Source of the DNA: Bradyrhizobium sp. WSM1417
GTDB lineage: Bacteria; Pseudomonadota; Alphaproteobacteria; Rhizobiales; Xanthobacteraceae
Direction: 5' to 3'
Assembly (NCBI RefSeq): GCF_000515415.1
Contig: NZ_KI911783.1
Span: 3,772,392-3,836,391 of the forward strand
Length of the DNA: 64,000 bases
The notes beneath the pieces are model-generated. The model was not told where the DNA came from. It searched no databases and worked only from the letters and a program-made list of their open reading frames with translations. Position 1 is the first letter of the stretch. Every line of letters begins with the position of its first letter. Shown here piece after piece: positions 5,758 to 45,130 of this stretch. A program made the position numbers and the translations under genes.

Positions 5758-5767
5758 TGTCGTTCTC

Positions 5768-7320
<1,553 letters not shown>

Positions 7321-7324
<4 letters not shown>

Positions 7325-21461: not shown

Positions 21462-21887
21462 TTAAGCTGCTTGCGGCGTGCCGTTGAGTGCTTCGTCGAT
21501 GACGGCCGCGATGTCACGCATGCTGATGACCGAGACGAGGCTGTAATCGTCGATGACAGGCAGGTGCCGGATGTGATTCCGGTTCATCAGATGGCGGACG
21601 TGCTCGATCGTGTCGCTCGAGGTGCAGGACACGAGTTGCTGCACCGAGACGAGCTGCGAGACCTTGACGTTGACGGCATTGACGCCGTGCTCGGCGACCG
21701 CGCGCACGACGTCGCGCTCGGTGAACATGCCGACCGCGGTGTTACCCTCGGAGCGGACCACGTCCTTCACCACCAGTGCGCTGATATTGTTGGCGCGCAT
21801 CAGCTTGGCGGCGATACCCACCGTTTCGTTCATTCGCACCGTGACAACGCGCGGTGTCTTCTTGCGCAGAATGTCTCCGACCAGCAT
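21462..21887 (-). CDS. Two-CBS-domain protein preceded by the oxalate-type operator
   Basis: 141-aa protein made only of a CBS pair. CBS1 runs from about 8 to 60 (TVGIAAKLMRANNISALVVKD...GMFTERDVVRAV) and CBS2 from about 75 to 130 (TIEHVRHLMNRNHIRHLPVIDDYSLVSVISMRDI). CBS pairs bind adenine nucleotides and sense energy state, often controlling partner proteins. The ATG at 21885-21887 follows GGGAGG. A copy of the six-member operator lies 34 bp upstream, which places this gene in the predicted oxalate regulon. Partner unknown. Confidence 0.88.
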   Translation of the reverse strand: MLVGDILRKKTPRVVTVRMNETVGIAAKLMRANNISALVVKDVVRSEGNTAVGMFTERDVVRAVAEHGVNAVNVKVSQLVSVQQLVSCTSSDTIEHVRHLMNRNHIRHLPVIDDYSLVSVISMRDIAAVIDEALNGTPQAA

Positions 21888-21920: not shown

Positions 21921-21937
21921 TGGTATACATAATGCCA
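21921..21937 (-). promoter_or_regulatory. Oxalate-regulon operator copy 1 (CBS gene)
   Basis: On the plus strand TGGTATACATAATGCCA; read towards the gene it is TGGCATTATGTATACCA, preceded by GCTTGACGAT. The half-sites TGGCAT and TATACCA match the other five copies. The TTGACG just upstream looks like a -35 box, so the operator would occupy the -35/-10 spacer and block transcription when bound. Confidence 0.75.
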
Positions 21938-22006
21938 ATCGTCAAGCATTCGGTTTGGCTGATCCGAAAATTCTTGCGGCAGCAATGCTGACATTTGTCG
22001 TGAGCC

Positions 22007-22036
22007 AAAAAGAAAGGGGCGCATCGCTGCGCCCCT
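22007..22036 (-). terminator. Rho-independent terminator of the first MFS gene
   Basis: AGGGGCGCA and TGCGCCCCT (22015-22036) form a 9-bp stem with a 4-nt loop. Read leftwards it is followed by TTTCTTTTT, so it ends the transcript 28 bp after the MFS stop codon. Confidence 0.8.
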
Positions 22037-22063
22037 GTCTCACCCGTGCAAGGTGCGTGTTCG

Positions 22064-23386
22064 TTATGCCGTCTCGGTCTTGGCGTTCCCCGTCGCGGCG
22101 TTGGCGCTCTCGGCTTCCTTGCCGAGGATGAAGGAGCGGCGCATCGGCTTGATCACGAACAGCGCCATCAGGGCCGCCGTCGCGTTCAGCGCCACCGCGA
22201 CCACGAACACGGCCTTCCAGCCATACGTGGCCGAGATCACGCTTGCGAGCGGAACGAGCAGGGACGCCGTCCCCTTCGCCGTGTAGAGCATGCCGTTGTT
22301 GGTGGTCGCGAACTTCGAGCCGAAGGTGTCGCCGCAGGTCGCCGGGAATAACGAGTAGATCTCGCCGAACACGCCGAAATAGACCGCGGTGGCGAGCACG
22401 AAGACGACAGGCACGTGGCCATAGGCCGACAACGTCAGCAGCATCAGCGCGGCGGTGCCGAAGGCGATGAACATGGTGTGCTCGCGGCCGATCGTGTCGG
22501 AGACGAAGCCGAAGAAGGGCCGTCCGAAACCGTCGAAGATGCGGTCGAGCGAGATCGCGAACGTCAATGCGGCCATCTGGAAGCCGGCGAGCGTGACCGG
22601 CGTGTCGGCGATCTTGAAGTCGTGCGCGATCGGAGCGATCTGCGCCGCGGTCATCAGGCCGCCGGAGGCGACCATGACGAAAACGAGATACATCACCCAG
22701 AAAATAGGGGCGCGCAGCACCTGGGGCGGGGTGAAGTCGATCTTGGTCTGCGGCAGATTGAGCTGCTTCTTCTTCGGTGGGATCGAGATCCGCGGCGGCT
22801 GGATGAAGAAGGCGAGCACGAAGACGATCAGGCCCTGGCCGATGCCGAAGGTGAGGAACGCGTGCTGATAGCCGCTCGTTGCGATCATGGTCGCGATCGG
22901 CACGACGGTGAGGGCCGCGCCTGCACCGAAGCCGGCGGCGGTTGCACCGGCGGCCAGGCCCCGGCGATCGGGAAACCATTTCAGCGCGTTGCCGACGCAG
23001 GTGCCGTACACAGCGCCCGCGCCCATGCCGCCGATGATCGCGGCCGCGTAGAGCAAGGTGAGGCTATCGGCATAGGAGTTGAGAATCCAAGACAGCGCGA
23101 TCATGACGCCGCCGAACATGATGACGATGCGCGGGCCGTATTTGTCGACGAACCAGGCCTCGATCGGCACCAGCCAGGTTTCGGTGACGACGAAGATGGT
23201 GAAGGCGAGCTGGATCGCGGCGCGTCCCCAATGGTGCGCGTGATCGATCGGATCGACGAACAGCGTCCAGCCGTATTGCAGGTTGGCGATCATCGCCATG
23301 CAGACGATGCCCATGACGAGCTGGAGCCAACGGAAACCTGTGCGAAGAGGCGCGGCCGTGACAGCGCCATCGGTGCTGGAAATCAT
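22064..23386 (-). CDS. OxlT-type MFS carrier, oxalate/formate antiporter family (copy 1)
   Basis: 440-aa major facilitator with about 12 membrane segments. The OxlT family exchanges oxalate for formate or takes up monocarboxylates. The sequence has the family pattern NLQYGWTLFVDPI, FTIFVVTETWLVPIEAWFVDKYGPR, GAGAVYGTCVGNALKWFPDRRGLAAG and LDRIFDGFGRPFFGFVSDTIGREHTM. The ATG at 23384-23386 follows CGGGAGG. An operator copy is located about 100 bp upstream and a terminator follows the stop, so it is a single-gene unit. Oxalate as substrate is inferred from operator sharing with oxc-frc. Confidence 0.9.
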   Translation of the reverse strand: MISSTDGAVTAAPLRTGFRWLQLVMGIVCMAMIANLQYGWTLFVDPIDHAHHWGRAAIQLAFTIFVVTETWLVPIEAWFVDKYGPRIVIMFGGVMIALSWILNSYADSLTLLYAAAIIGGMGAGAVYGTCVGNALKWFPDRRGLAAGATAAGFGAGAALTVVPIATMIATSGYQHAFLTFGIGQGLIVFVLAFFIQPPRISIPPKKKQLNLPQTKIDFTPPQVLRAPIFWVMYLVFVMVASGGLMTAAQIAPIAHDFKIADTPVTLAGFQMAALTFAISLDRIFDGFGRPFFGFVSDTIGREHTMFIAFGTAALMLLTLSAYGHVPVVFVLATAVYFGVFGEIYSLFPATCGDTFGSKFATTNNGMLYTAKGTASLLVPLASVISATYGWKAVFVVAVALNATAALMALFVIKPMRRSFILGKEAESANAATGNAKTETA

Positions 23387-23483
23387 CAAGAACCTCCCGA
23401 GCGCCTGTCTGGTTCGACACCGGCCGCAAGATGACCTGATGTCGCAATATTGTGGCTTATCGTCGCAAGCGCGATGGCGAGCT

Positions 23484-23500
23484 TGGTATACCATATTCCA
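23484..23500 (-). promoter_or_regulatory. Oxalate-regulon operator copy 2 (first MFS gene)
   Basis: Plus strand TGGTATACCATATTCCA; towards the gene TGGAATATGGTATACCA preceded by GCTTGCAATC. It contains the perfect 10-bp palindrome TGGTATACCA, a classical core for GntR proteins. The 5' half has one change (TGGAAT). Confidence 0.75.
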
Positions 23501-23589
23501 GATTGCAAGCCTTTTCTCGGCGCGCCACCGACAAAATACGCGGGGTTCCGCTTGGGAACGGCGGACTCATGAAAACGTCGCGCAAAACG

Positions 23590-23619
23590 AAAACGCCCGG
23601 CCGTGGGGCCGGGCGTTTT
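23590..23619 (-). terminator. Rho-independent terminator of the second MFS gene
   Basis: ACGCCCGGCC and GGCCGGGCGT form a perfect 10-bp stem with a 4-nt loop, flanked by AAAA and TTTT, 27 bp after the stop of the second MFS gene. The symmetric A/T flanks would allow it to work in both directions. Confidence 0.85.
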
Positions 23620-23645
23620 GCACGAGAAGGCGCTTTTGGAGCGCG

Positions 23646-24932
23646 TCAGACGGTCGATTGCGCGACCACCACCTTGCGCCAGGGCTTGAGCACCGCGATC
23701 GCCAGCGCCGAGGCCAGGATGTTGGCGCCGGCCGCGATGATGAACACGTTGTCCCAACTGCCCGACGACTGCTGCATGTAGTTGCCGATCGGGACCAGCA
23801 GCGCGGCCGTACCCTTCGCGGTGTAGAGCAGGCCGGCATTGGTGGTCGCGAACTTGGCGCCGAATGTGTCGGTGCAGGTCGAGGGGAACAGCGAGTAGAT
23901 CTCACCCCAGGCGAAGAACACGAAGCCCGAGAGCAGTACGAACCAGAGCGGATCGTGGCCCCAGAGGTAGAGCATCCAGATGCCGATACCTTCCATGCCG
24001 AAGGCGATGAACATCGTGTTCTCGCGGCCGATCATGTCGGAGATCCAGCCGAAGAACGGACGCGTCAGGCCATTGAGCACGCGGTCGATCGTGGCCGCGA
24101 AGGTCACCGCGGTCATGGTCACCGCCATCAGCGTGACCGGCACGTTGTCGATCTTCCAGTCGGCCGCGATCGGCTTCAAATTGGCCGTCACCATCAGGCC
24201 GCCGGCGCCGACGATCACGAACATGAAGTACATCAGCCAGAAGATTGGCTGACGCAGCACCTCGGTCGGCTGATAGTTGCGGCGGGTCTGTTGCAGATTG
24301 GCGTTCACGACCGCGTTCGGCACCTGGCCTGCTTTCGGCGCGAGCAGGAAGAAGGCGAGAATGCAGATAATGATGCCTTGTCCGAGGCCGAAATAGAGGA
24401 AGGTGGTCTGGAAACCGCTGTCCTTGATCATGGCCTGGATCGGCGCGACGGTCAGCGCGGAGCCTGCACCGAAGCCCGCTGCCGTGATGCCCGCGGCAAG
24501 ACCGCGCTTGTCCGGAAACCACTTCAAGGCGTTGCCGACGCAGGTGCCGTAGACGCCGCCGGCGCCGATGCCTGCGATGATCATGCCGAGATAGTAGCCG
24601 TTGAGCGTGGTCGCCTGCGCGTTGATGGCCCAGCCGGCGGCACAGAGCACGCCGCCGACCAGCACGACGAGGCGCGGGCCGTATTTGTCGACGAACCATC
24701 CTTCGATCGGCACGAGCCAGGTCTCGAACAGCACGAACAGCGTAAAGGCCCATTGGATCGACGCGCGATCCCAGCCGAACTTCTTCTGGATGTCGGGGAC
24801 GAAGAACGTCCAGCCGTATTGATAGTTGGCGATCATCACCATCGCCGCGACACCGACCGCCAATTGCGTCCAGCGATACGTGTCGCTAACGCGCGCGGCT
24901 GTCGGGGCGGTTGCTTGCACCATGTCCGTCAT
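23646..24932 (-). CDS. OxlT-type MFS carrier, oxalate/formate antiporter family (copy 2)
   Basis: 428-aa paralogue of the preceding carrier, same orientation, about 12 membrane segments. Shared landmarks include NYQYGWTFFVPDIQKKFGW, FETWLVPIEGWFVDKYGPR, GAGGVYGTCVGNALKWFPDKRGLAAG and LNGLTRPFFGWISDMIGRENTM. The ATG at 24930-24932 is preceded by GGGAGG. It has its own operator about 50 bp upstream and its own terminator, so the two copies arose by tandem duplication but kept separate control; they may differ in substrate (oxalate, formate, related anions). Confidence 0.9.
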   Translation of the reverse strand: MTDMVQATAPTAARVSDTYRWTQLAVGVAAMVMIANYQYGWTFFVPDIQKKFGWDRASIQWAFTLFVLFETWLVPIEGWFVDKYGPRLVVLVGGVLCAAGWAINAQATTLNGYYLGMIIAGIGAGGVYGTCVGNALKWFPDKRGLAAGITAAGFGAGSALTVAPIQAMIKDSGFQTTFLYFGLGQGIIICILAFFLLAPKAGQVPNAVVNANLQQTRRNYQPTEVLRQPIFWLMYFMFVIVGAGGLMVTANLKPIAADWKIDNVPVTLMAVTMTAVTFAATIDRVLNGLTRPFFGWISDMIGRENTMFIAFGMEGIGIWMLYLWGHDPLWFVLLSGFVFFAWGEIYSLFPSTCTDTFGAKFATTNAGLLYTAKGTAALLVPIGNYMQQSSGSWDNVFIIAAGANILASALAIAVLKPWRKVVVAQSTV

Positions 24933-24983
24933 AAAGCCTCCCGTGGCGCCTCTCATTTTTCTGCGAGCGCTGGAACGGCATTC

Positions 24984-25000
24984 TTGTATGCATTATGCCA
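24984..25000 (-). promoter_or_regulatory. Oxalate-regulon operator copy 3 (second MFS gene)
   Basis: Plus strand TTGTATGCATTATGCCA; towards the gene TGGCATAATGCATACAA, preceded by GCTTGAAGCT. It has the intact 5' half TGGCAT and a degenerate 3' half. Confidence 0.7.
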
Positions 25001-25086
25001 AGCTTCAAGCGCTGGTCCGGTCACCGTGCGCAAATGCCGCAGGACCTTGCCCGGTTGCGGCTGTGACTCAGGACAACACAAGTAGA

Positions 25087-25111
25087 AATGGCCCCGTGAT
25101 CCGGGGCCATT
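25087..25111 (-). terminator. Stem-loop downstream of the 45-aa gene
   Basis: AATGGCCCC (25087-25095) pairs with GGGGCCATT (25103-25111) over a 7-nt loop; leftwards it is followed by TCTACTTGT, a poor U tract. With the stem at 25147-25167 it would form a double terminator for the 45-aa gene. Confidence 0.5.
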
Positions 25112-25138
25112 CATCAAAAGTAGTATGCGGACTGATCT

Positions 25139-25167
25139 AAAACCGTCTCCCGCTGCGCGCGCGGGAG
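25139..25167 (-). terminator. Rho-independent terminator of the 45-aa gene
   Basis: CTCCCGC (25147-25153) pairs with GCGGGAG (25161-25167); read leftwards the stem is followed by ACGGTTTTAG. It begins 10 bp after the stop codon of the 45-aa gene, which supports that gene being transcribed. Confidence 0.6.
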
Positions 25168-25176
25168 GCTGCCGGC

Positions 25177-25314
25177 CTATAGGCCGAAGCGCGGCAGGTC
25201 GCCGTTGTGATTCGAGATCTTGGCGCTCGCCATCAGGAGGCGGTCGATCGTGGCCATCAGGCGGGCGAACAGCGAGGCGGAGGGCGCGAGAGCGATGGAG
25301 GCGGTCTTGGACAT
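25177..25314 (-). CDS. 45-aa micro-protein under the oxalate-type operator
   Basis: A short frame starting at ATG 25312-25314 (Shine-Dalgarno AAAGGGA) and ending with TAG at 25177-25179. The product begins MSKTASIALAPSASLFARLM and ends SNHNGDLPRFGL. The middle (about 12-32) can form an amphipathic helix. I recall a loose family of small Bradyrhizobium proteins ending in NGDxPxFGL but know no function. A well-spaced promoter with an operator copy lies upstream and a terminator lies 10 bp after the stop, so this is a complete transcription unit. Confidence 0.7.
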   Translation of the reverse strand: MSKTASIALAPSASLFARLMATIDRLLMASAKISNHNGDLPRFGL

Positions 25315-25365
25315 CGGAAATCCCTTTCTTGAGACGGTCAGCAGTGCTGTCTCATTTCGAAAGGG

Positions 25366-25394
25366 AGTTTATGTATACCAGATGCCAATGTCTA
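25366..25394 (-). promoter_or_regulatory. Promoter with oxalate-regulon operator copy 4 (45-aa gene)
   Basis: Leftward promoter: -35 TAGACA (25389-25394), spacer of exactly 17 bp, -10 TAAACT (25366-25371). The operator (25371-25387; plus strand ATGTATACCAGATGCCA, towards the gene TGGCATCTGGTATACAT) fills the spacer, the clearest example here of a repressor site blocking RNA polymerase. A further palindrome TATGCA...TGCATA lies at 25393-25410. Confidence 0.7.
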
Positions 25395-25593
25395 TGCATG
25401 TCATTGCATAGCAGCATTTAACTCTTCGCATTGCAGCATAATAATCCGTTAAATGGGCCGATTTGAGCGGGATATGCCCAAAACCGGCCGAAACTGAACC
25501 ATTTGACCGTCGATGTCCAAAAACGGAGCCTTGGCAGCGGTAAACGAAGTCGCTAGTGGTCTGCCCCCTTCCAATCATCTGTCAGAGTGGTTC

Positions 25594-26925
25594 ATGTCGA
25601 GCGCCTCGCCCGCCGTCTCGATCGGCATCGATTTTGGGACCAGCAACACGGTCGTGGCCCTTGCGGCGGACGACCGCCGGGTCGAGGCCATCCGCTTCGA
25701 CCATGGCGGACAGCGCCACAGCGTCTTCGTATCGGCGCTCTGCTTCTGGGAGGACCGGCCGGGAGCCGGCGCCCAGGCCGAAGGCGGCCCGTGGGCGATC
25801 GAGCAGTTCCTCGAAGGCCGCCATGTCTACCGCTTCCTCCAGTCGTTCAAGACCTTCGCCGCGAGCTCCAGCTTCAACACCACCCAGGTGTTCCGGCAGC
25901 GCTACAAGTTCGAGGACATTTTGGCGGCGTTCCTGCGGACGCTGGCGCGCCATGGCGGCGATAAATTCGGCTTCGAGACGTCCACCGTCACGGTCGGTCG
26001 CCCCGTCCGCTTCGCCGGCGGCAATCCCGACGAGGCGCTGGCGATGCAACGTTACCGGGCCGCGTTCGAGCGCCTTGGGGCCGGTCACGCCCGCTACGTC
26101 TACGAGCCTGTCGGAGCCGCGTTCTCCTTCGCCCGCCGGCTGGAGCGCGATGCGACCGTGCTGGTCGCGGATTTCGGCGGCGGCACCAGCGATTTCTCGG
26201 TGATGCGGTTCTCGCGGGCCGGCGGCGCCTTGCGCGCCGAGCCGCTCGGCCATGCCGGCATCGGGATTGCGGGCGACACCTTCGATTACCGCATCGTCGA
26301 TCACGTCGTCTCGCCGCGGCTGGGCAAGGGCTCGAGCTTCCGCTCATTCGACAAGGTGCTGCCGATCCCCACCGGCCACTACACCAATCTCGCGCGCTGG
26401 CATCAGCTCGCGATGATGAAGAGCAACGGCGACCTGCGCGAACTCCGAGAGCTAGCGCGCACCGCGGTGAAGCCGGCGCTGCTCGAGGATTTCATCACCA
26501 TCGTCGATCTCGACCTCGGCTTTTCGTTGTACCGCGCGGTGTCCGACGCCAAAGTCGCGCTGTCGGCGCAGGATCAGGTGGACTTCCGTTTCAAAGGCGG
26601 TGGCGTCGACATCGGCTCGACCATCACACGGAAGAATTTCGAAGCCTGGATTGCCGACGATATCGCGAGGCTCGGGGCTACCGTCGACAAGGTGCTTGGC
26701 GAAGCCGGCATCACCGCGCGCGAGATCGAGAAGGTGTTCTTGACCGGCGGCACGTCCTTTGTGCCCGCCGTTCGAAAACTGTTCGCCGAGCGGTTCGGCA
26801 ACGAACGGCTGATGTCGGGCGACCAGTTCGAGTCGATCGCCTACGGCCTTGCTTTGATCGGGCACAGCCCGGACCCCGACCGCTGGACCGCAAGCGGCGG
26901 GCTCCAGTCGAGGGCGGGCGCGTAG
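25594..26925 (+). CDS. Hsp70-family protein, YegD-like
   Basis: 443-aa actin/Hsp70-fold ATPase without the substrate-binding and lid domains of DnaK. Nucleotide-binding motifs: phosphate 1 IGIDFGTSNTVVALA (about 8-22), phosphate 2 VLVADFGGGTSDFSVMRF, and adenosine motif VFLTGGTSFVPAVRKLF near the C-terminus. The ATG at 25594 puts the first motif near the N-terminus, as in YegD; an in-frame ATG at 25513 would add 27 residues without similarity. Neither has a strong ribosome site. Role in folding or in an unknown ATP-dependent process is not established. Confidence 0.88.
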   Translation: MSSASPAVSIGIDFGTSNTVVALAADDRRVEAIRFDHGGQRHSVFVSALCFWEDRPGAGAQAEGGPWAIEQFLEGRHVYRFLQSFKTFAASSSFNTTQVFRQRYKFEDILAAFLRTLARHGGDKFGFETSTVTVGRPVRFAGGNPDEALAMQRYRAAFERLGAGHARYVYEPVGAAFSFARRLERDATVLVADFGGGTSDFSVMRFSRAGGALRAEPLGHAGIGIAGDTFDYRIVDHVVSPRLGKGSSFRSFDKVLPIPTGHYTNLARWHQLAMMKSNGDLRELRELARTAVKPALLEDFITIVDLDLGFSLYRAVSDAKVALSAQDQVDFRFKGGGVDIGSTITRKNFEAWIADDIARLGATVDKVLGEAGITAREIEKVFLTGGTSFVPAVRKLFAERFGNERLMSGDQFESIAYGLALIGHSPDPDRWTASGGLQSRAGA

Positions 26926-26964
26926 CCTACGGTTACGCGGCCGCCCCTAAGTCGCGTCCGGTCG

Positions 26965-27408
26965 CTATTGCTTGATCTCAGGCTCGACGAGCTTCGCCAG
27001 ATTGCGCAGCGATTCCTGCCAGCCGAGATAACAAGCCTCCGGCGGGATGACGTCGGGGATGCCCGCCTGCGTGATATCCAGCTCGGTGCCGACGGATACT
27101 TTCTTCAGGATCACGGTGACTTGGATTTCGCCCGGTAGATTGGGGTCGTCGAACCTGTCGGTGTAACGGAGACGTTCGCCGGGGACGAGCTCGAGATATT
27201 CGCCGCCGAAGGCGTGGCTGTTGCCCGTCGTGAAGTTACGGAATGACATCTTGAACGTGCCCCCGACCGTCGGCTCGAAATGATGGACGGTGCAGGTGAA
27301 GCCGTTCGGCGGAAGCCATTTCGCCTGCGCATCCGCCTCCAGGAAGGCGCGATAGACTTTCTCCGGGCTGGTCGTGAGAACGCGGTGCAGGCGGACAGTG
27401 CTGGGCAT
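26965..27408 (-). CDS. SRPBCC / AHSA1-domain protein
   Basis: 147-aa START-like protein. RVLTTSPEKVYRAFLEADAQAKWLPPNGFT, GGTFKMSFRNFTTG and the C-terminal GWQESLRNLAKLVEPE match the activator-of-Hsp90-homology group found widely in bacteria, which bind hydrophobic ligands in a helix-grip fold. The ATG at 27406-27408 follows GGAAG; the longer in-frame extension upstream is non-homologous. It converges with the Hsp70-like gene, leaving about 40 bp between stops. Confidence 0.82.
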   Translation of the reverse strand: MPSTVRLHRVLTTSPEKVYRAFLEADAQAKWLPPNGFTCTVHHFEPTVGGTFKMSFRNFTTGNSHAFGGEYLELVPGERLRYTDRFDDPNLPGEIQVTVILKKVSVGTELDITQAGIPDVIPPEACYLGWQESLRNLAKLVEPEIKQ

Positions 27409-27805
27409 GATCAGTCTTCCTCGTGAAGCGCCGGGCTCGACGTCAGCGTCTATTGCCCGTTCATGTGTAGATGACGGACGAGGTACCGCCGATCCGACGG
27501 GGCATCTCGAATTTTTTGATGGGTCCACGCATGTGGCGCTCGGCAGCGCTCCCAGAGCAGCTCGCCGGGGGCGAACGATGAGCGCCGAATAGCGCACGTC
27601 ACGTACCTACCGCCGGGCTCCCGAGCCGTTAAATTCGGTCAAGCCTTGCAAATGGCGAGGATGAGGTATACGTTGAGGCTGTTCGTTCAGCCGCTGTGCC
27701 TTGTTGAATGCGCCCGCGGGCTCCTTTTCCATAGACATCGACGAATAGAATTTGTTCTGCGTGACTATCACGCGGAACCTGCGCGTATGCGCTTTGGAGA
27801 AGAAA
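27409..27805 (+). promoter_or_regulatory. Upstream region and probable 5' leader of the cold-shock gene
   Basis: About 400 bp with no supportable gene. A possible promoter is TTGCAA (27646-27651) and TATACG (27667-27672), though the 15-bp spacer is short. If used it would give an untranslated leader of roughly 125 nt, the kind of long leader that cspA-type mRNAs use for temperature-dependent folding. GGAGAAG lies just before the ATG. Confidence 0.35.
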
Positions 27806-28015
27806 ATGACGACAGGTACTGTGAAGTGGTTTAACGGCCAGAAGGGCTTTGGATTCATTCAGCCGAACGACGGCGGCAACGATGTGTTCGTTCACATCAG
27901 CGCGGTCGAGCGGGCTGGTCTTGCAGGTCTCGCTGAAGGCCAAAAGGTCAACTTCGAGCTCAAGACCGACAAGATGCGGGGCAAGGTCAGCGCTGAGAAT
28001 CTCTCGCTGGCCTAA
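27806..28015 (+). CDS. cspA: Cold-shock domain protein (CspA family)
   Basis: 69-aa single OB-fold RNA/DNA chaperone. RNP1 is seen as KGFGFIQP and RNP2 as [28 protein letters not shown] is the standard family opening. The ATG at 27806 is placed by GGAGAAG. A strong terminator follows 44 bp after the stop. Confidence 0.96.
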
Positions 28016-28058
28016 AGCCTTGGTGCCGTTTCACGGATGTACTGAAACGGCCATGCCA

Positions 28059-28089
28059 CCCGCTCGATCCCAGGATTGAGCGGGTTTTT
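28059..28089 (+). terminator. Rho-independent terminator of the cold-shock gene
   Basis: CCCGCTC (28059-28065) pairs with GAGCGGG (28078-28084), extended by a few further pairs, and is followed by TTTTTG. Classical rightward terminator. Confidence 0.9.
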
Positions 28090-28113
28090 GTCCGTTGCAG
28101 AGCAGGGTGAATA

Positions 28114-28356
28114 ATGAGCGCCAAGAGACCGGCCGAACCGTCACCCGAAAGCATCGCGCGTTCTAACCGTCAGCGTTTGGCTGCTGAGGAAGGCGCCCGG
28201 GCGATGGTGGATGTTGGAAAGCAAGCCGTCGATGTTCGCAAGAACATGGCGCGGCTCCGAGAGCTGCGCGAAGCCAAGGAAGCGGCAGACGCCGCCCTTC
28301 AGGCTTCCTTGCCCGCAGCCACTCCGACGAAGCGCAAGAAGAAGGTGACGCCATAG
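28114..28356 (+). CDS. Small basic protein of unknown function
   Basis: 80 aa, starting MSAKRPAEPSPESIARSNRQ with a Shine-Dalgarno AGGGTGA. The middle is a charged alpha-helix (KNMARLRELREAKEAADAAL) and the C-terminus is lysine-rich (TKRKKKVTP). The length, codon use and ribosome site favour a real gene; no family is recognised. The basic tail would suit nucleic-acid contact, but this is speculation. Confidence 0.6.
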   Translation: MSAKRPAEPSPESIARSNRQRLAAEEGARAMVDVGKQAVDVRKNMARLRELREAKEAADAALQASLPAATPTKRKKKVTP

Positions 28357-28410
28357 CTGCCTTCCATTGCGCCGAAGACAGCTCGGTGAGGACCGATCAC
28401 ATGCCCAAGG

Positions 28411-28635
28411 GTGCGGGTCGTGCCTAGAATCAAGTCGGATGGCGGTGGCACCATCACTTTCTTTCTCGCGCTTGGCGCGGGCCGACAGATGTGCCGTCTT
28501 GCGACGACGTTCCTGACGCAGAAGCAGGCTTTCAGTTATCTTCGCAAGAACCGGACCGAGTTCGAGCGCATGGCGCGGGCGCAGCTCGCTTCTGGTGCAG
28601 TCGAAGACGGAATCGTCGTGCTCTCGATGCTGTAA
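28411..28635 (+). CDS. Small protein of unknown function
   Basis: 74 aa from a GTG at 28411; a second GTG at 28420 is better spaced from AAGGG and may be the true start. The sequence has a beta-like N-terminal part (GGTITFFLALGAGRQM) and a helical end (FSYLRKNRTEFERMARAQLASGAVEDGIVVLSML). Codon use is like the neighbours. No recognisable domain. Confidence 0.5.
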   Translation: MRVVPRIKSDGGGTITFFLALGAGRQMCRLATTFLTQKQAFSYLRKNRTEFERMARAQLASGAVEDGIVVLSML

Positions 28636-28677
28636 GGCAGGCGCAGATCCGCGGTCGGAGTCTGGGACCCGACGCTC

Positions 28678-28860
28678 TTATTCGGAGCCGCTTCCCGGCT
28701 TCGCCTCCCGAGCCAATCGCTCCGCTTTCAGCCGCTCGCGATTCTCGTTGAAGGAGTTCTGGTCCTTCGCATAGTCATTGATCGGCTTCTGCGTTGTCGC
28801 AGGCTTGAACGCCTTGTTGGCTTCACGCTTGGCGCGATCAGAGGATTGATCTTTCGACAT
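28678..28860 (-). CDS. Small hydrophilic protein of unknown function
   Basis: 60 aa, MSKDQSSDRAKREANKAFKP to KPGSGSE, with GAGGG before the ATG at 28858-28860. It is highly charged, without cysteine, tryptophan or membrane segment, and probably disordered or helical (NENRERLKAERLAREAK). It converges with the preceding rightward small gene. No function can be assigned. Confidence 0.6.
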   Translation of the reverse strand: MSKDQSSDRAKREANKAFKPATTQKPINDYAKDQNSFNENRERLKAERLAREAKPGSGSE

Positions 28861-29235
28861 TTAAGCCCTCAATTTGATCAACGAGCGTGGTCCGGGCGAA
28901 TGCCGGACGCGACGCCGCCCGTGCCTGAACTGAAAGGCCGACTTGCCACCTTCGGAAGCGAAGGCGACCAGTGCTTCAGCGTGGGGCAGGGTCTTTGCGA
29001 GGCGTGCTGCACTCGCCGTGGAGATGGCATGCTGGCATTTCCGGGCCTGCTCGCATTCCCGGGAGCACGCCGGTCGAGGGAGCAACGGCCGGCCACCGCG
29101 TCTGTTCCTCGCAGACCAATCTTTAATCCAGCCTTCGCGGCGCGGCAAGCGGGCCGATCGTGCGATGCAGCCCTTCCGCCTCAACAAAAAAGGCCGCCGA
29201 AGCCGGCGGCCTTTCGCGTCGTGAGATAAGCCCGC
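28861..29235. other. Intergenic interval without a supported gene
   Basis: Several short frames are open in both directions, but none has a ribosome site or a plausible product. The only feature I support is the frc terminator at its right end. Confidence 0.5.
29186..29214 (-). terminator. Rho-independent terminator of the gntR-oxc-frc operon
   Basis: GGCCGCCG (29192-29199) and CGGCGGCC (29204-29211) form an 8-bp stem with a 4-nt loop; read leftwards it is followed by TTTTTTG. It lies about 25 bp after the frc stop codon. Confidence 0.9.
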
Positions 29236-30513
29236 TTACTCGGCGGCCTGCTTTTGCGGCGGATCGAGTGCGCCGGACTTGTGGATATCGGCGACCTGAT
29301 GGTCCGAGAAGCCAAGCACCGTGCGCAGGATCTCGTCCGTGTGCTCGCCGAGCAGCGGGGAGCGCTCCACCTCGCTCGGGGAGTCCGACAGCTTGATCGG
29401 GTTGCCGACCGAGATGTACTTGCCGCGGGTGGGGTGGTCGACCTCGACCACGGTGCCGGTCGCGCGCAGCGACTGGTCCTCGGCGATCTCCTTCATCGAC
29501 AGGATCGGGCCGCAGGGGATGTCGTCCTTGTTGAGGATTTCCATCGCCTCGAACTTCGTCTTCGTCATCGTCCACTGTTCGATGCGGCCGAAGATCTCGT
29601 TGAGGCGCGGTAGGCGGACGGCCGGCTTGGCGTAGTTCGGATCGGTCTTCCAGGATGGCTCGCCGATCACGTCGCAGATCTTCTCCCAGACCGGGGCCTG
29701 GGTGATGAAGTAGATGTAGGCGTTGGGATCGGTCTCCCAGCCCTTGCACTTCAGGATGCGGCCGGGCTGGCCGCCGCCGGAATCGTTGCCGGCGCGCGGC
29801 ACGGCATCGCCGAACGGAATGCCTTCGCCGAACTGGCTGTATTCCTTGAGCGGACCATGGGCGAGGCGCTGCTGGTCGCGCAGCTTGACGCGCGCGAGGT
29901 TGAGCACGCCGTCCTGCATCGCGGCCGTCACCTTCTGGCCCTTGCCGGAATGGGTACGCTGATAGAGTGCGGTGACGATGCCGAGCGCCAGATGCAGGCC
30001 GGTGCCGCTGTCGCCGATCTGCGCGCCGGTCACGAGCGGCAGGCCGTCGCGGAAGCCGGTAGTGGAGGCGGCGCCGCCGGTGCACTGTGCGACGTTCTCA
30101 TAGACTTTGCAGTCTTCGTACGGTCCGGGACCGAAGCCCTTGATCGAGGCGACGATCATCTTCGGGTTGATCGCCTGGATCTTCTCCCAGGGGAAGCCCA
30201 TGCGGTCGAGCACGCCGGGACCGAAGTTCTCGACCAGCACGTCGCACTTTTTGATCAGCTCGGTGAGGACTTCCTTGCCCTTGGGGTTCTTGGTGTCGAG
30301 CGTGATCGAGCGCTTGTTGTGGTTGAGCATGGTGAAATACAGGCTGTCCACGTTCGGGATGTCCTGCAGCTGGCCGCGGGTGATGTCACCGACACCTGGA
30401 CGTTCCACCTTGATCACGTCGGCGCCGAACCATGCGAGCAACTGCGTGCAGGTCGGCCCGGACTGGACGTGGGTGAAGTCGAGAATGCGAACGCCCTCGA
30501 GCGCTTTTGTCAT
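29236..30513 (-). CDS. frc: Formyl-CoA:oxalate CoA-transferase
   Basis: Class III CoA-transferase (425 aa) that moves CoA from formyl-CoA to oxalate, making oxalyl-CoA for Oxc and releasing formate. The catalytic aspartate is D168 in IGDSGTGLH, at nearly the same position as D169 of the Oxalobacter enzyme. The glycine loop that closes over the active site is seen as NDSGGGQPG. The N-terminal [20 protein letters not shown] and [13 protein letters not shown] are family hallmarks. Last gene of gntR-oxc-frc, 65 bp after oxc, followed by a strong terminator. Confidence 0.96.
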
Positions 30514-30578
30514 CGTGTTGCTCCGTACTCTGATCTACCCCTGCACCCGCAGGGACCTTATGGGTTGAAGGGGAGTGC

Positions 30579-32312
30579 TTACTTCTTCTTCTGCAGAACG
30601 CTCTGCGGATTGAGATTGCCGATGCGGCCGCTCTCGGAACCGGCGGCGGGATCGATCACGGCGTTGATGAGCGTCGGCTTGCCCGAAGCCATGGCTTCGT
30701 TGACGGCGCGCTTGAGCTCGTCCGGCGAGGTCGCGTTCACGCCGATGCCGCCGAAGGCTTCCATCATCTTGTCGTAGCGGGCGCCCTTGACGAACACGGT
30801 CGTCGCCGGATCGGCGTTGACGCTGTTGACGTCGGTACCGCGATAGATGCCGTCATTGTTGAAGATGACGACGCAGATCGGCAAATTGTAGCGGCAGATG
30901 GTCTCGACCTCCATGCCGGAGAAGCCGAAGGCCGAGTCGCCTTCGACCGCGAGTACGGGATGGCCGGTCTCGAGGGCCGCCGCGATCGCCTGGCCCATGC
31001 CGATGCCCATCACGCCCCAGGTGCCGACGTCGAGACGCTTGCGTGGGCGATACATGTCGATGACGCCGCGGGCGAGGTCGAGCGTGTTGGCGCCCTCGTT
31101 GACGAGGATCGCCTCGGGATGATCCTTGATGACGTTCTTCAGCACGCCGAGCGCGCCGTGATAGTCCATCGGCGATTTGTTGTTCATGAGCTTCGGCGCC
31201 ATCTTGGCGACGTTCTCTTCGCGCTTGGTCGAAATCGCCTTGGTCCATTCGGCCGGCGGGGCGGTCCAGCCCGAAGCCATCGCCTGGTTGAAGGCGGAGA
31301 CGACCGAGCCGATGTCGCCGACGACGGGCGCGACGATCTCGACGTTGGAGTCCATTTCCCTGGGCTCGATGTCGACCTGGATGAACTTCTTGGGCGCTTC
31401 GCCCCAGTTCTTGCCTTTGCCGTGCGAGAGCAGCCAGTTCAGCCGGGCGCCGATCAGCAGCACGACGTCGGATTCTTTCAGCACCGTCGAGCGGGCAGCG
31501 CCTGCGCACTGCGGATGGGTGTCGGAGAGGAGGCCCTTGGCCATGCTCATCGGCAGGAAGGGAATGCCGCTCTTCTCGACGAAGGTTTTGATCTCCTCGT
31601 CGGCCTGCGCGTAGGCCGCGCCCTTGCCGAGGATGATGAGCGGACGTTTTGCGCCCTTCAAAACATCAAGCGCGCGCTTGATCGAAGCGGGCGAGGGGAT
31701 CTGCGCGGGAGCCGCGTCGATCACCTTGACCAGCGACTTCTGGCCGGCATCGGCGCTCATCACCTGACCGAACAGTTTTGCCGGCAGGTCGAGATAGACG
31801 CCGCCCGGACGACCGGAGACGGCGGCACGAATGGCGCGGGCAAGGCCGATGCCGATGTCCTGCGCGTGCAGCACGCGATAGGCTGCCTTGCACAGCGGCT
31901 TGGCGATCGCGAGCTGGTCCATCTCTTCGTAGTCGCCCTGCTGGAGGTCGACGATCTCGCGCTCGGAGGAGCCCGAGATCAGGATCATCGGGTAGCAGTT
32001 GGTGGTGGCGTGCGCGAGCGCGGTGAGACCGTTGAGGAAGCCGGGCGCGGAAACGGTGAGGCAGATGCCGGGTTTCTTGGTGAGGTAGCCGGCGATGCCC
32101 GCCGCATAACCGGCGTTCTGCTCGTGGCGGAACGAAATCATGCGAATACCGGCCGCCTGGGCCATGCGGCCCAAATCCGTGATCGGGATGCCCGGCACAT
32201 TATAGATGGTGTTGATGCCGTTCAGCTTGAGCGCGTCGATGACGAGATGAAAACCATCCGTCAATTCCTGCTCGGTGCCCGGTGCTTCGGACTTGGTCGC
32301 GGTATTCAGCAT
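30579..32312 (-). CDS. oxc: Oxalyl-CoA decarboxylase
   Basis: ThDP enzyme (577 aa) that decarboxylates oxalyl-CoA to formyl-CoA. The catalytic glutamate is E64 in [14 protein letters not shown]. The diphosphate/Mg site is [12 protein letters not shown]...[14 protein letters not shown] in the middle domain fits the ADP-activator site known for this enzyme. It shares a transcript with the GntR gene (78 bp upstream) and frc (65 bp downstream); no operator copy or terminator separates them. Confidence 0.96.
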
Positions 32313-32390
32313 GGGCCTTGTCTCCCTGGTCTCAAGATGCCGTTTCAGGCTTTAGGGGCGATGCCTCGCCCTTCTGGTGAACGTTGCTGG

Positions 32391-33119
32391 CTAGAAGAGT
32401 TCCTGACCATGCGCTTCGACGTAAGCGGCAAGGCCAAGGGTGTGATCACGGGCGCGCTTCTCGGCGAGCTCGGTATCGCGCGCCTCCAGGGCCTCGATCA
32501 TGCCGAGATGCTCGGGGAGCGAAGTCGCGGTGCGGTCCTTGCGTCCGATGGTCAGTTGCCGATAGCCGCGCACGTGCAGCAGCAGGTCGTTGGTGAGATC
32601 GACCAGCACCGGTGATTCCGACAGCGAGATCAGCGCCTGGTGGAAGGCGATGTTGGCGCGCGAATATTCCTCGACGTGATCCTCGGGCAGGCGATCCTTG
32701 CCAAATTCCCTGAAGTAGTCGCGGAGCGCAGTGATGTCTTTCTTGCGCGCGGTAGCGGTGATGAGGCGGGCCGCCATGCTCTCCAACGCCGCCCAGGCGC
32801 GGATCATGTCGACGATCTCGCTCTTGGTCCTCCGCACCACCATGATGCCGCGGCGCGGAACCGTCTTCACGAAACCGTCCTGCTCGAGCATCGCGATGGC
32901 TTCGCGGATCGGCGTGCGGCTTACGCCCAGGCGTTCGGACAACGCGCGCTCGTCGAGCATCACCGGCTCGGGCGTCGAGTAGATGTCCATCTTGAGGATG
33001 GCTTCCTTCAAGGCGTCGTACGCCTTGTTCTTGAAGCTCGACTCCGGGGCAATACGAACGATTGCGATATCTGCCTCGGCCATGTTCGGCAACGCCTTGG
33101 TTGGTTTCCGCAGTGACAC
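32391..33119 (-). CDS. GntR-family (FCD) regulator of the oxalate genes
   Basis: 242-aa regulator. The winged helix-turn-helix is ERALSERLGVSRTPIREAIAMLEQDGFVKTVPRRGIMVV (about 57-95). The FCD effector domain follows, with histidines in FHQAL, EHLGM and DHTLG likely to bind a metal and thus a carboxylate ligand. Start is GTG at 33117-33119 with GGAGGAG upstream. It is the first gene of the oxc-frc operon and has operator copies on both sides of its promoter region, so it most likely represses itself and the other operator-bearing genes until oxalate, oxalyl-CoA or a similar ligand is present. Confidence 0.92.
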   Translation of the reverse strand: MSLRKPTKALPNMAEADIAIVRIAPESSFKNKAYDALKEAILKMDIYSTPEPVMLDERALSERLGVSRTPIREAIAMLEQDGFVKTVPRRGIMVVRRTKSEIVDMIRAWAALESMAARLITATARKKDITALRDYFREFGKDRLPEDHVEEYSRANIAFHQALISLSESPVLVDLTNDLLLHVRGYRQLTIGRKDRTATSLPEHLGMIEALEARDTELAEKRARDHTLGLAAYVEAHGQELF

Positions 33120-33175
33120 GACGAATCTCCTCCAGTGGGAGTCGTCTTTTACAGGATTATTAACGGGAAAGTTTT

Positions 33176-33192
33176 TGGCATACCAAATACCA
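33176..33192 (-). promoter_or_regulatory. Oxalate-regulon operator copy 5 (gntR-oxc-frc)
   Basis: Plus strand TGGCATACCAAATACCA; towards gntR it is TGGTATTTGGTATGCCA, 3 bp after the leftward TTGACA. Located 57 bp before the gntR start codon, suited to autoregulation. Confidence 0.8.
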
Positions 33193-33256
33193 GAATGTCA
33201 AGCTGCCTATTTTTTGCAGCGTTCTAAGGTGCGCTGCAGCTTGACAAGTTGGCTTC

Positions 33257-33273
33257 TGGCATACCAAATGCCA
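33257..33273 (+). promoter_or_regulatory. Oxalate-regulon operator copy 6 (acyl-CoA synthetase)
   Basis: TGGCATACCAAATGCCA, a perfect inverted repeat of TGGCAT around a 5-bp centre. It begins 10 bp after the rightward TTGACA, so it overlaps the expected -10 region, and is the best-conserved copy. Confidence 0.8.
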
Positions 33274-33432: not shown

Positions 33433-35562
33433 ATGTCCAATTCCAAAGATGCCGTCCGCAAGGTGCTTGACCAGGTCAAGGCGGACAAGCGCACCAGCCT
33501 GACCGCGCCGGAAGGCAAGCTGGTCTGCGACGCCTACGGCATTGCGGTGCCGAAGGAGGGGGTGGCGAAGTCGGCCGGCGAGGCCGGCAAGATGGCCGCC
33601 TCGATGGGCTTCCCGGTGGTGATGAAGATCGTCTCGCCGGACATTCTCCACAAGACCGAAGCCGGCGGCGTCATCGTTGGCCTCAAGTCGGCCGAGGACG
33701 CCGAGAAGGCCTACGAGACGATCCTGTCGAATGCCAGGAAATACAAGTCCGATGCCAAGATCGAGGGTGTCCAGGTGCAGCAGATGCTGGCCGGCGGCAC
33801 CGAAGTGATCGTCGGCTCGATCACCGACGCCTCGTTCGGCAAGCTGGTTGCCTTCGGTCTCGGCGGCGTGCTGGTCGAAGTCCTGAAGGACATTACGTTC
33901 CGCCTCGCGCCCGCGACCAAGCAAGATGCGCTGTCGATGCTCGACGGCATCCAGGCGCATGAAATTTTGAAGGGCGTTCGCGGCGGCGAGCCGGTGAACC
34001 GCACGGCGCTCGCCGATGTCATCGTCAAGGTCTCGCAGCTCGTCACCGATTTCCCCGAGATCGTCGAGCTCGATCTCAACCCGGTGTTCGCGACGGCCAA
34101 GGACGCGATCGCGGCCGACGTCCGCATCGTCGTCGACTTTGCTTACGTGCCCAAGCCGAAGCCGCGCCCGACCGAAGAGATCGTCGCGGCCATGAGCCGC
34201 ATCATGCAGCCGAAGGCGGTTGCCGTGGTCGGCGCTTCGGCCGAAGACGGCAAGATCGGCAATTCCGTGATGAAGAACCTCATCAATGGCGGCTACAAGG
34301 GCGACATCTACCCGATCCATCCCAAGGCCGCCGAGATCCTCGGCTATAAGGCGTATAAGAGCGTCAAGGACGTGCCCGGTGTGATCGACACCGCGGTGTT
34401 CGCAATTCCCGCGAAGTTCGTGGCCGCGGCGCTCACCGAATGCGGCGAGAAGAAAATTCCCGGCGCGGTTCTGATCCCGTCGGGCTTCGCGGAAGCCGGC
34501 GCGCCGGAGCTCCAGGCCGAGATCGTCGAAGTCGGCAAGAAGTACGACATCCGCCTGATGGGACCGAACATCTACGGCTTCTATTATACGCCTGCCAACC
34601 TCTGCGCGACCTTCTGCACGGCCTATGATGTCAAGGGCCACGCGGCACTGTCTTCGCAATCGGGCGGTATCGGCATGGCCATCATCGGCTTCTCCCGTTC
34701 GGCCAAGATGGGCGTGTCGGCGATCGTCGGCCTCGGCAACAAGTCCGACATCGACGAGGACGATCTGCTCGCCTTCTTCGAGCAGGACCCGAACACGAAT
34801 CTGATCGCGCAGCACTGCGAAGACCTCAAGGACGGCCGCGCGTTTGCTGAAGCCGCAAAGCGCGTCTCCAAGAAGAAGCCTGTCATCGTGCTCAAGGCCG
34901 GTCGCACCTCGGCCGGTGCGAAGGCGGCCTCGTCGCACACCGGCGCGCTCGCCGGCAACGACAAGATCTACGAGGATGTCCTGGCGCAGTCCGGCGTGAT
35001 CCGCGCCCGTAGCTTGCGGCAGCTGCTCGAGTTCGCGCGGGGCGTGCCGGTGCTGCCGACGCCGAAGGGCGAGAACGTGCTGATCATCACTGGCGCCGGC
35101 GGCTCGGGCGTGCTGCTGTCGGACTCCTGCGTCGACAACGGCCTGTCGCTGATGGCGATGCCGGCGGATCTGGATGCGGCCTTCCGCAAATTCATCCCGC
35201 CGTTTGGCGCGGCCGGAAATCCCGTGGACATCACCGGTGGCGAGCCGCCGATCACCTACGTCAACACTGTGAAGCTCGGCCTGACGGACGAGCGCATCCA
35301 TTCGCTGATCCTCGGCTACTGGCACACCATCGTCACGCCGCCAATGGTGTTCGCCCGCAACATGGTTGAGGTGAAGAAGGAGATGGAGGCCAAGGGCTTC
35401 GTGAAGCCGATCGTCGCCTCGCTCGCCGGCGACGTCGAGGTCGAGGAAGCCGCCGAATATCTCTACCAGAACGGCATTCCGGCCTATGCCTATTCGACCG
35501 AGCTGCCGGTCGAGGTCCTCGGCGCCAAGTACAAATGGGCGCGCGGAGCAGGGCTGCTCTGA
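33433..35562 (+). CDS. NDP-forming acyl-CoA synthetase with ATP-grasp domain first
   Basis: 709-aa fusion related to acetyl-CoA synthetase (ADP-forming) and succinyl-CoA ligase. Order here: ATP-grasp (about 10-235; VVMKIVSPDILHKTEAGGV, VELDLNPVF), CoA-binding Rossmann domain (about 255-350; VVGASAEDGKIGNSVMKNL), then the succinyl-CoA-ligase-like domains. The phosphohistidine is H502 in SSHTGALAG. A beta-alpha order differs from Pat-type alpha-beta fusions. The reaction interconverts a CoA thioester with acid plus ATP. Operator sharing with oxc-frc suggests formyl-CoA, oxalyl-CoA or another product as substrate; this is inference. ATG preceded by GGGAGA. Confidence 0.88.
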   Translation: MSNSKDAVRKVLDQVKADKRTSLTAPEGKLVCDAYGIAVPKEGVAKSAGEAGKMAASMGFPVVMKIVSPDILHKTEAGGVIVGLKSAEDAEKAYETILSNARKYKSDAKIEGVQVQQMLAGGTEVIVGSITDASFGKLVAFGLGGVLVEVLKDITFRLAPATKQDALSMLDGIQAHEILKGVRGGEPVNRTALADVIVKVSQLVTDFPEIVELDLNPVFATAKDAIAADVRIVVDFAYVPKPKPRPTEEIVAAMSRIMQPKAVAVVGASAEDGKIGNSVMKNLINGGYKGDIYPIHPKAAEILGYKAYKSVKDVPGVIDTAVFAIPAKFVAAALTECGEKKIPGAVLIPSGFAEAGAPELQAEIVEVGKKYDIRLMGPNIYGFYYTPANLCATFCTAYDVKGHAALSSQSGGIGMAIIGFSRSAKMGVSAIVGLGNKSDIDEDDLLAFFEQDPNTNLIAQHCEDLKDGRAFAEAAKRVSKKKPVIVLKAGRTSAGAKAASSHTGALAGNDKIYEDVLAQSGVIRARSLRQLLEFARGVPVLPTPKGENVLIITGAGGSGVLLSDSCVDNGLSLMAMPADLDAAFRKFIPPFGAAGNPVDITGGEPPITYVNTVKLGLTDERIHSLILGYWHTIVTPPMVFARNMVEVKKEMEAKGFVKPIVASLAGDVEVEEAAEYLYQNGIPAYAYSTELPVEVLGAKYKWARGAGLL

Positions 35563-44321: not shown

Positions 44322-44332
44322 GGAACAGCAAC

Positions 44333-45118: not shown

Positions 45119-45130
45119 GGAAACTTTGAC

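Follow-up and report, generated by a model that had tools for sequence, protein, structure and literature searches.

The region considered here is a 64,000-nt window of the Bradyrhizobium sp. WSM1417 genome (8,048,963 bp, one contig). It carries a cluster of genes for oxalate uptake and catabolism, a gene for a GntR-family regulator with an FCD domain, and six copies of a 17-bp sequence that are predicted to be the operators of this regulator. Oxalate catabolism in soil and nodule bacteria is well known at the level of its enzymes: OxlT imports oxalate, Frc transfers coenzyme A (CoA) to it from formyl-CoA, Oxc carries out the decarboxylation, and a dehydrogenase oxidises the formate. In what follows, G plus a number denotes a genome, L plus a number a locus and g plus a number a genus. 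The six copies had been reported in an earlier note on this DNA; all were confirmed, each in minus-strand orientation and just upstream of a gene. The predicted operators, including one overlapping register on the other strand, are:

21921 to 21937, minus strand: TGGCATTATGTATACCA, before the CBS-panE2-FAH operon; found in the pattern searches, with a TTGACG -35-like hexamer starting 8 bp before it; a site also precedes the CBS gene in L261-L263.
23484 to 23500, minus strand: TGGAATATGGTATACCA, before oxlT1; found in the pattern searches and seen in relatives.
24984 to 25000, minus strand: TGGCATAATGCATACAA, before oxlT2; found with the strict pattern and seen in relatives.
25371 to 25387, minus strand: TGGCATCTGGTATACAT, before the gene for a 45-residue protein; found in the pattern searches.
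33176 to 33192, minus strand: TGGTATTTGGTATGCCA, before gntR-oxc-frc; found in the pattern searches and seen in relatives.
33257 to 33273, minus strand: TGGCATTTGGTATGCCA, in the divergent region between gntR and ACS; invariant in every one of its 17 columns over 81 sequences.
33250 to 33266, plus strand: TGGCTTCTGGCATACCA, the overlapping register on the ACS side; it shares the inner 10-bp box 33257-33266 and has TTGACA at 33241-33246.

The genes behind these sites are:

19553 to 20338, minus strand: FAA-hydrolase family protein (Pfam FAA_hydrolase), with a one-base overlap with panE2.
20338 to 21357, minus strand: PanE2, ketopantoate-reductase family (Pfam ApbA/ApbA_C), a candidate oxalyl-CoA reductase.
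21462 to 21887, minus strand: CBS-domain protein (Pfam CBS), first gene of its operon.
22064 to 23386, minus strand: OxlT1, oxalate/formate antiporter family (TIGR04259, above cut-off).
23646 to 24932, minus strand: OxlT2, oxalate/formate antiporter family (TIGR04259, above cut-off).
25177 to 25314, minus strand: 45-residue protein without a Pfam match, with its own predicted operator and a conserved C-terminus.
29236 to 30513, minus strand: frc, formyl-CoA:oxalate CoA-transferase (TIGR03253, 756.4 bits against a cut-off of 504.2).
30579 to 32312, minus strand: oxc, oxalyl-CoA decarboxylase (TIGR03254, 1055.9 bits against a cut-off of 739.4).
32391 to 33083, minus strand: GntR/FCD regulator (Pfam GntR and FCD), a candidate repressor; the start is MAEADIA, and a GTG at 33119 may be an alternative, longer start.
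33433 to 35562, plus strand: ACS, a nucleoside-diphosphate (NDP)-forming acyl-CoA synthetase (Pfam ATP-grasp_5, Succ_CoA_lig and CoA_binding_2).

The genes first listed for these sites (a CBS protein, two OxlT-like carriers, the 45-residue gene, gntR-oxc-frc and ACS) were all found, and panE2 and the FAA-hydrolase gene in the CBS operon are added to them. The name PanE2 is a label that we assume for the ketopantoate-reductase-family protein at 20338 to 21357; it matches at 83% the PanE2 of G010, which stands behind a double operator. FAA-hydrolase genes also lie near panE2 or sucCD in L122, L120 and L297. The 45-residue protein gave 28 tblastn matches, and 25 of the 26 distinct sequences are exactly 45 residues long and keep the C-terminus; it also occurs in genus g3, and an operator-like site starts 71-88 bp before its start codon in the homologous loci found. 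ACS scored below the cut-off of every NCBIfam model that it matched, and its best relative in a sequence search of solved structures was an ADP-forming 4-hydroxybutyrate-CoA ligase, which leaves its reading unchanged.

When the window was searched with the pattern of the earlier note at up to three mismatches, six matches were obtained against 0.06 expected from shuffles; these are five of the reported sites and the overlapping plus-strand register at 33250. The site at 24984 has four mismatches to that pattern and so falls outside this search, fits the strict genome-wide pattern TGGHATNHKGYATRCMW and recurs in relatives. The reversed motif served as the control in the pattern scans. A scan of the whole genome with TGGHATNHKGYATRCMW resulted in seven matches, the six sites of the window and TGGTATATGGTATGCCA at genome position 1174675 upstream of sucC, and in none for the control. 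At up to three mismatches the genome gave 43 matches and the control 51, so there is no excess; these loose matches were dropped as evidence and only close matches were used. Two of three new matches at two mismatches in this genome (L002, L004) were likewise dropped, one having no called gene nearby and one lying inside a called coding sequence. The statement that no clear copy occurs elsewhere is therefore true of the window if the 33250 register is set aside, and fails for the genome, which has the sucC site and weaker sites at formate dehydrogenase and PanE-like genes. All seven strict matches precede oxalate-cluster genes or sucC, and no scatter away from oxalate genes was seen in this genome.

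The sites are conserved in the genus. Among 40 Bradyrhizobium genomes the pattern TGGNATNWKGNATRCMW was matched 290 times (4 to 10 per genome) and its reversed control three times. In the 80 Bradyrhizobium loci fetched by the GntR protein, both sites upstream of gntR are present in every one of the matches listed. One of the genus, G232, has only a 322-residue open frame in the place of oxc (L237:6926-7894), with the rest of the cluster and the operators kept. Away from the gntR cluster the picture is less clean than in the source genome: 13 of 20 inspected regions at motif matches lie at formate dehydrogenase, PanE-like, CBS-panE2 or sucCD/gcl genes.

The regulator has a GntR winged helix (PF00392, 1.8e-12, 47.1 bits against a cut-off of 27) and an FCD domain (PF07729, 4.4e-21, 76 bits against 24.3). 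Three histidines presumably occupy the usual metal-site places of the FCD domain, and they are conserved in an alignment of the 10 GntR sequences that passed a motif filter. The best relatives in the search of solved structures were GntR-family regulators, and the reading is unchanged. In 297 genomes of the order surveyed at E 1e-70, the threshold that also defines absence of the protein below, orthologues were found in 36, and the source genome has one match. Beyond the genus, 14 loci with orthologues, 265 kb in total, contain TGGYAT-N5-ATRCCA with at most one mismatch 48 times against 0 for the control, always outside called genes; the sites precede gntR, oxc, frc, oxlT, ACS, fdsB, tripartite-carboxylate transporter genes and a SucC-like gene. 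Six more such loci gave 22 sites against 0. Single irregularities were a control match in L238, a palindrome within a called gene in L246 and, in L245, another roughly 500 bp away from transhydrogenase-like genes.

The number of sites also follows the protein. Genomes with an orthologue have a mean of 6.03 perfect palindromes and those without it 1.43 (Mann-Whitney p 2e-19), and the control palindromes number 0.22 and 0.19. Within single genera, GntR-positive genomes have 5, 6 and 6 palindromes against 0 and 1 in negative ones, 5 and 6 against 0-2 (ten genomes), and 3-5 against 0 (one genome). The GntR gene had been called the obvious candidate regulator, and it is indeed the best one, as its orthologues lie among oxalate genes with the same operator and sites are more numerous in genomes that have it (6.0 against 1.4). 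Seven GntR-positive genomes gave no oxc match at E 1e-200; in the four of them that were inspected, a thiamine-diphosphate enzyme only 25-27% identical to Oxc lies beside frc (L238:17751-19490, L239:7543-9300, L241:5027-6754, L244:9554-11308); the best models for that of L241, acetolactate synthase and 2-hydroxyacyl-CoA lyase, are below cut-off.

The predicted operator consists of two overlapping symmetries, an outer palindrome TGGYAT-N5-ATRCCA and, usually, an inner box of FadR type. The inner symmetry spans positions 8-17 (TKGYATRCMA), with GT and AC two bases apart; the consensus of the FadR subfamily is TKGT/ACMA with GT and AC 2-3 nt apart (PMC4494728). Of 43 perfect outer palindromes, 31 contain the inner box (K9 G10 Y11), where 2000 shuffles gave a mean of 5.4 and a maximum of 13; the other 12 have the outer symmetry alone. 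The description of TGGTATACCA as a classical GntR core is thus partly right. Weaker extra half-sites 7-12 nt from the site centre have been reported for FadR-subfamily operators (PMC4494728), in keeping with this arrangement.

The operators at 21921, 23484, 24984, 25371 and 33176 are each preceded by a -35-like hexamer that starts 7-9 bp before them, and on the ACS side one starts 9 bp ahead of the 33250 register. These five of the six window operators begin 1-3 bp past the hexamer and extend toward the -10 region. An exact GCTTGAC, which had been described as the usual preceding sequence, is found at 21921, at 33176 and in the ACS-side promoter; variants stand at 23484 (GCTTGCA), 24984 (GCTTGAA) and 25371 (ATAGACA). 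In a logo of 65 distant sites, chosen by the outer palindrome and oriented partly by an upstream TTG, so that -35 counts pool both strands, the start of TTGAC, TTGCA or TTGAA falls 8-9 bp upstream in 17 cases and 16-18 bp upstream in 13, and no other upstream distance occurs more than four times. A position inside the -35/-10 spacer fits repression. The 33176 operator, which lies ahead of gntR-oxc-frc, would be autoregulatory.

The target list had been confined to the window, and it proved too short: sucCD, a formate dehydrogenase and a second PanE-like gene are further predicted targets outside it. The NAD-formate dehydrogenase (fdsB-like) of the source genome has the upstream site TTGCATCTGGCATACCA (L003), weaker than the strict matches. 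In 26 parsed formate dehydrogenase promoters (4 of 30 loci were left out) the site is present with at most one mismatch in 21 and with at most two in all 26, against 0 of 26 at one mismatch for the reversed control. The 354-residue PanE-like gene has the upstream site TGGGATAATGGATACAA (L115), which is weak in this genome. The PanE-like protein (L115:3312-4376, L261:15606-16631) is too distant to surface in a PanE2 search, and the source genome has both. In G038, G001 and G024, three of ten Bradyrhizobium genomes in which PanE2 has no match at its E-value threshold, the CBS operon behind the operator holds a relative of the PanE-like protein (84-85%) in the place of PanE2, which supports membership of the PanE-like gene in the regulon. 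Elsewhere in the window, a second formate-dehydrogenase-like gene set (2872-7324; 35-36% to the operator-bearing one) has no strong operator match, and gcl-hyi-tsr at 42531-46018 has no operator; in L238 and L242 the gcl operon has an upstream site.

The sucC site of the source genome lies 58 bp before the start codon, in an mdh-sucC-sucD-sucA cluster. In Bradyrhizobium it is found in 29 of 30 sucC promoters, 28 identical and one with a single base change, and starts 69-76 bp before the ATG; none of 88 non-overlapping 17-column windows in these promoters (L105, without the site, was left out) matches the conservation of the operator. The exception is G015, which has two sucC copies: the one after mdh has no site, and the second, next to gcl, has two. 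In a set of 18 genomes, sucC itself carries the site only in Bradyrhizobium G010, in the second G015 copy and in G274 (genus g3). The housekeeping sucC has no site in the genomes of this set with a cluster copy, the sucC of G273 has the inner box only, and that of G115, 12 kb from gntR, has no site.

In other lineages sucCD is found within the oxalate cluster. G245 (f20) has ACS, sucC, sucD and gntR in a row with sites before ACS; G144 (f28) has sucCD between ACS and gntR; G236 (f50) has the order operator-ACS-sucC-sucD-gntR; G159 (f50) has operator-ACS-sucC-sucD-sucA and a further 2-oxoglutarate-dehydrogenase-type gene; and in G180 (f35) sucC and sucD lie between oxlT2 and gntR. In the family of the source genome, a second sucC has a one-mismatch site in G357, G350 and G416 and a two-mismatch site in G440; in G350, G416, G440 and G374 the second copy has CBS, oxlT or tct genes that belong to the oxalate set as neighbours, and in G434 the only sucC sits in an oxlT2-ACS-sucC-sucD-gntR row behind two sites. 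A tree of 29 SucC proteins places each of the extra copies of G015, f50 and f35 beside the housekeeping sucC of its lineage; at least three duplications were therefore independent. Of 13 genomes with a close GntR in other genera of the family, eight have a single sucC, and two of these (G462, G466) have the site; among 11 GntR-negative genomes, one (G348) has a one-mismatch match. Within genus g141, GntR-positive G462 has a one-mismatch site and GntR-negative G353 none.

A divergent SucC/SucD-like pair with a palindrome upstream was observed as well (L165:7045-9104, L238:14022-16153, L240:7759-9818, L242:10450-12510, L243:2214-4274). In several families it either has the operator upstream or is part of the gntR cluster, and some loci also have PanE2 and FAA-hydrolase. 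Both subunits narrowly pass one succinate-CoA ligase cut-off (376.2 against 370 and 356.4 against 336) and narrowly miss another, the beta subunit is far below the malate-CoA ligase cut-off, and the best relative of the SucC-like protein among solved structures is a succinyl-CoA synthetase beta subunit, which leaves the reading unchanged. The pair may be an ADP-forming oxalate-CoA ligase; by its NCBIfam scores a plain succinate-CoA ligase is as possible. A literature search for an ADP-forming oxalate-CoA ligase found no paper.

Taken together, the 17-bp site is very probably the operator of the FCD-type GntR protein (32391-33083), which would repress the oxalate pathway, sucCD included, until it is induced. 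The sequence itself shows the sites and their target genes, the degree to which the sites are conserved and their occurrence together with GntR. They most likely represent a real, small and well-conserved regulon of a FadR-type GntR protein; the binding of GntR, its action as a repressor and not an activator, the nature of the inducer and the roles of SucCD and ACS are what we infer from them. Without inducer, GntR would bind TGGYAT-N5-ATRCCA in the -35/-10 spacer and block transcription. When oxalate or an oxalate-derived metabolite builds up, GntR would release the DNA and the pathway would be switched on: uptake by OxlT1 and OxlT2, CoA transfer by Frc, decarboxylation by Oxc, formate oxidation by formate dehydrogenase, and reduction of oxalyl-CoA to glyoxylate by PanE2 or the second PanE-like protein. 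ACS, the 45-residue protein and extra sucCD transcription would also be induced.

Since the reduction of oxalyl-CoA frees CoA without yielding formyl-CoA, an ATP-dependent CoA ligation would be needed, for which SucCD and ACS are candidates. SucCD, and probably ACS, would provide CoA thioesters paid for with ATP, both to start the Frc/Oxc cycle and to replace those lost on reduction. It is tentatively proposed, as an idea with somewhat less than an even chance, that the Frc/Oxc CoA relay is not self-sustaining and that ATP-dependent CoA-thioester input has repeatedly been supplied by placing sucCD under or beside the oxalate regulator. The transhydrogenase genes that follow panE2 in G236, and by look-alike proteins in G096, fit an NADPH-dependent reduction.

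Several findings weigh against this reading. Seven of the 20 off-cluster regions are unassigned to pathway genes (L123, L124, L126, L128, L130, L131, L134), and the conservation of the 33176 site is equalled by 88 of 300 windows of its intergenic region. At least four palindromes are present in 29 of 261 GntR-negative genomes, so the motif is not exclusive to this GntR protein, and GntR-positive G249 has one palindrome only. As for sucCD, the cluster copies of sucC in f20, f28, f35 and f50 have no own site within 400 bp, and their link is therefore one of position or operon; in G144 an opposite-strand open reading frame separates ACS from sucC. Six of the eight single-sucC genomes with GntR (G377, G359, G452, G339, G381, G442) have no sucC site, and the sucC-operator link is not universal. 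The sucC site is kept in at least seven of the ten Bradyrhizobium genomes without PanE2 (G001, G012, G024, G028, G031, G038, G039), so a reductive drain of CoA through PanE2, considered as the sole reason for the site, is weakened and cannot be the only one; the second PanE-like gene may substitute where PanE2 has no match. YfdE and UctC, which are enzymes other than the Frc found here, did not use succinyl-CoA with oxalate (PMC3720670), and the main text of PMC5996035 names no succinyl-CoA enzyme.

The alternative that fares best concerns sucC alone. Here the site would raise the capacity of the tricarboxylic acid (TCA) cycle, or return succinyl-CoA to succinate, during growth on C2 compounds, and SucCD would have no direct role with oxalate. 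This is a serious competitor, if not quite an even bet: sucA follows sucCD in the source genome, G159 has sucA and the 2-oxoglutarate-dehydrogenase-type gene behind the same operator as ACS, and the sucC site persists without PanE2. However, among the annotated extra or cluster copies only that of G159 precedes sucA, and the others place sucCD beside CBS, panE2, oxlT, gcl or ACS. It is unlikely that GntR is an activator, or acts both ways, rather than a simple repressor. Another member of the subfamily, GlcC, works as an activator (PMC11323563) and double sites are found in divergent regions, but the position of five of the six window operators just past the -35-like hexamer is one that normally blocks polymerase.

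Slightly less likely still is that another protein binds the sites, either a paralogue of the GntR/FCD kind or the regulator of IclR type encoded at 35743-36585, with the linked gntR as no more than a target. The excess of palindromes extends to genomes without a GntR match (mean 1.43 against 0.19 for the control), and the motif resembles the general FadR-subfamily consensus TKGT/ACMA (PMC4494728). Against this, site number tracks the presence of this GntR within genera, sites adjoin gntR orthologues in many distant loci even where other neighbours vary, and the source genome has a single match to this GntR at 1e-70. Four genomes that are GntR-negative at this threshold have 7-11 perfect palindromes (G255, G050, G318 and G045, the last with oxc), and another or more distant regulator may use the motif there. 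Finally, that the copies are chance or an unrelated repeat is refuted, for in spite of the lack of excess at three mismatches (43 against 51) close matches outnumber their controls by 7 to 0 in the source genome, 290 to 3 in the 40 genus genomes and 48 to 0 in the 14 distant loci.

The preferred reading of the sites as GntR operators provides the experimental study of oxalate regulation with a candidate protein, a precisely defined operator and a list of targets. Among the literature matches listed, no paper connects oxalate genes with a GntR protein or with this operator, and none describes a regulator of oxalate catabolism in alphaproteobacteria. The sucCD link raises a biochemical question about the source of CoA thioesters for oxalate, and the sucC site hints at how cells pay for oxalate activation. 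The shared operator also points to candidate functions for the NDP-forming synthetase, two distinct PanE-like reductases, the SucCD-like ligase and the 45-residue protein.

Several known systems can be compared with this one. In B. diazoefficiens grown on arabinose, Frc, Oxc, Gcl and the NuoF-like blr2316, which is probably the dehydrogenase subunit met here, are higher or exclusively present (PMC5996035). The arabinose-induced branch resembles the present system in the joint rise of frc and oxc, accompanied by gcl and a NuoF-like protein; the available parts of that work mention neither a regulator or operator nor a link to sucCD. PanE of Methylobacterium extorquens AM1 interconverts oxalyl-CoA and glyoxylate (PMC9485241), and here too a PanE-family reductase, known by its family membership (ApbA, ApbA_C), stands beside the oxc/frc pathway. 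The available text on M. extorquens AM1 names no regulator, whereas here one operator links reductase, transport, formate dehydrogenase and sucCD.

NanR binds direct repeats of TGGTATAW (PMC4494728), with three dimers on a (GGTATA)3 operator (PMC8012715). The NanR model NF003011 is the second-best NCBIfam match of the regulator, with 63.3 bits, far below the cut-off of 260. The two share a TGGTAT-type half-site and several half-sites per operator; unlike in NanR, the outer half-sites here form an inverted 17-bp palindrome, and there are no sialic-acid genes among the identified targets. GlcR of Paracoccus denitrificans, a FadR-subfamily repressor, likewise has GntR and FCD domains, a gene by its target pathway and a palindromic operator (PMC11323563). 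The operator described here usually has a TKGT/ACMA-like box as in regulators of this subfamily (PMC4494728), and metabolic induction is expected. Unlike GlcR, the present regulator is associated with the oxalate pathway, a constant outer TGGYAT...ATRCCA surrounds or overlaps the inner box, and the predicted regulon reaches an enzyme of the TCA cycle. The regulator is most likely of a known kind, a FadR-type GntR protein, and what is unusual about it would be this reach into the TCA cycle.

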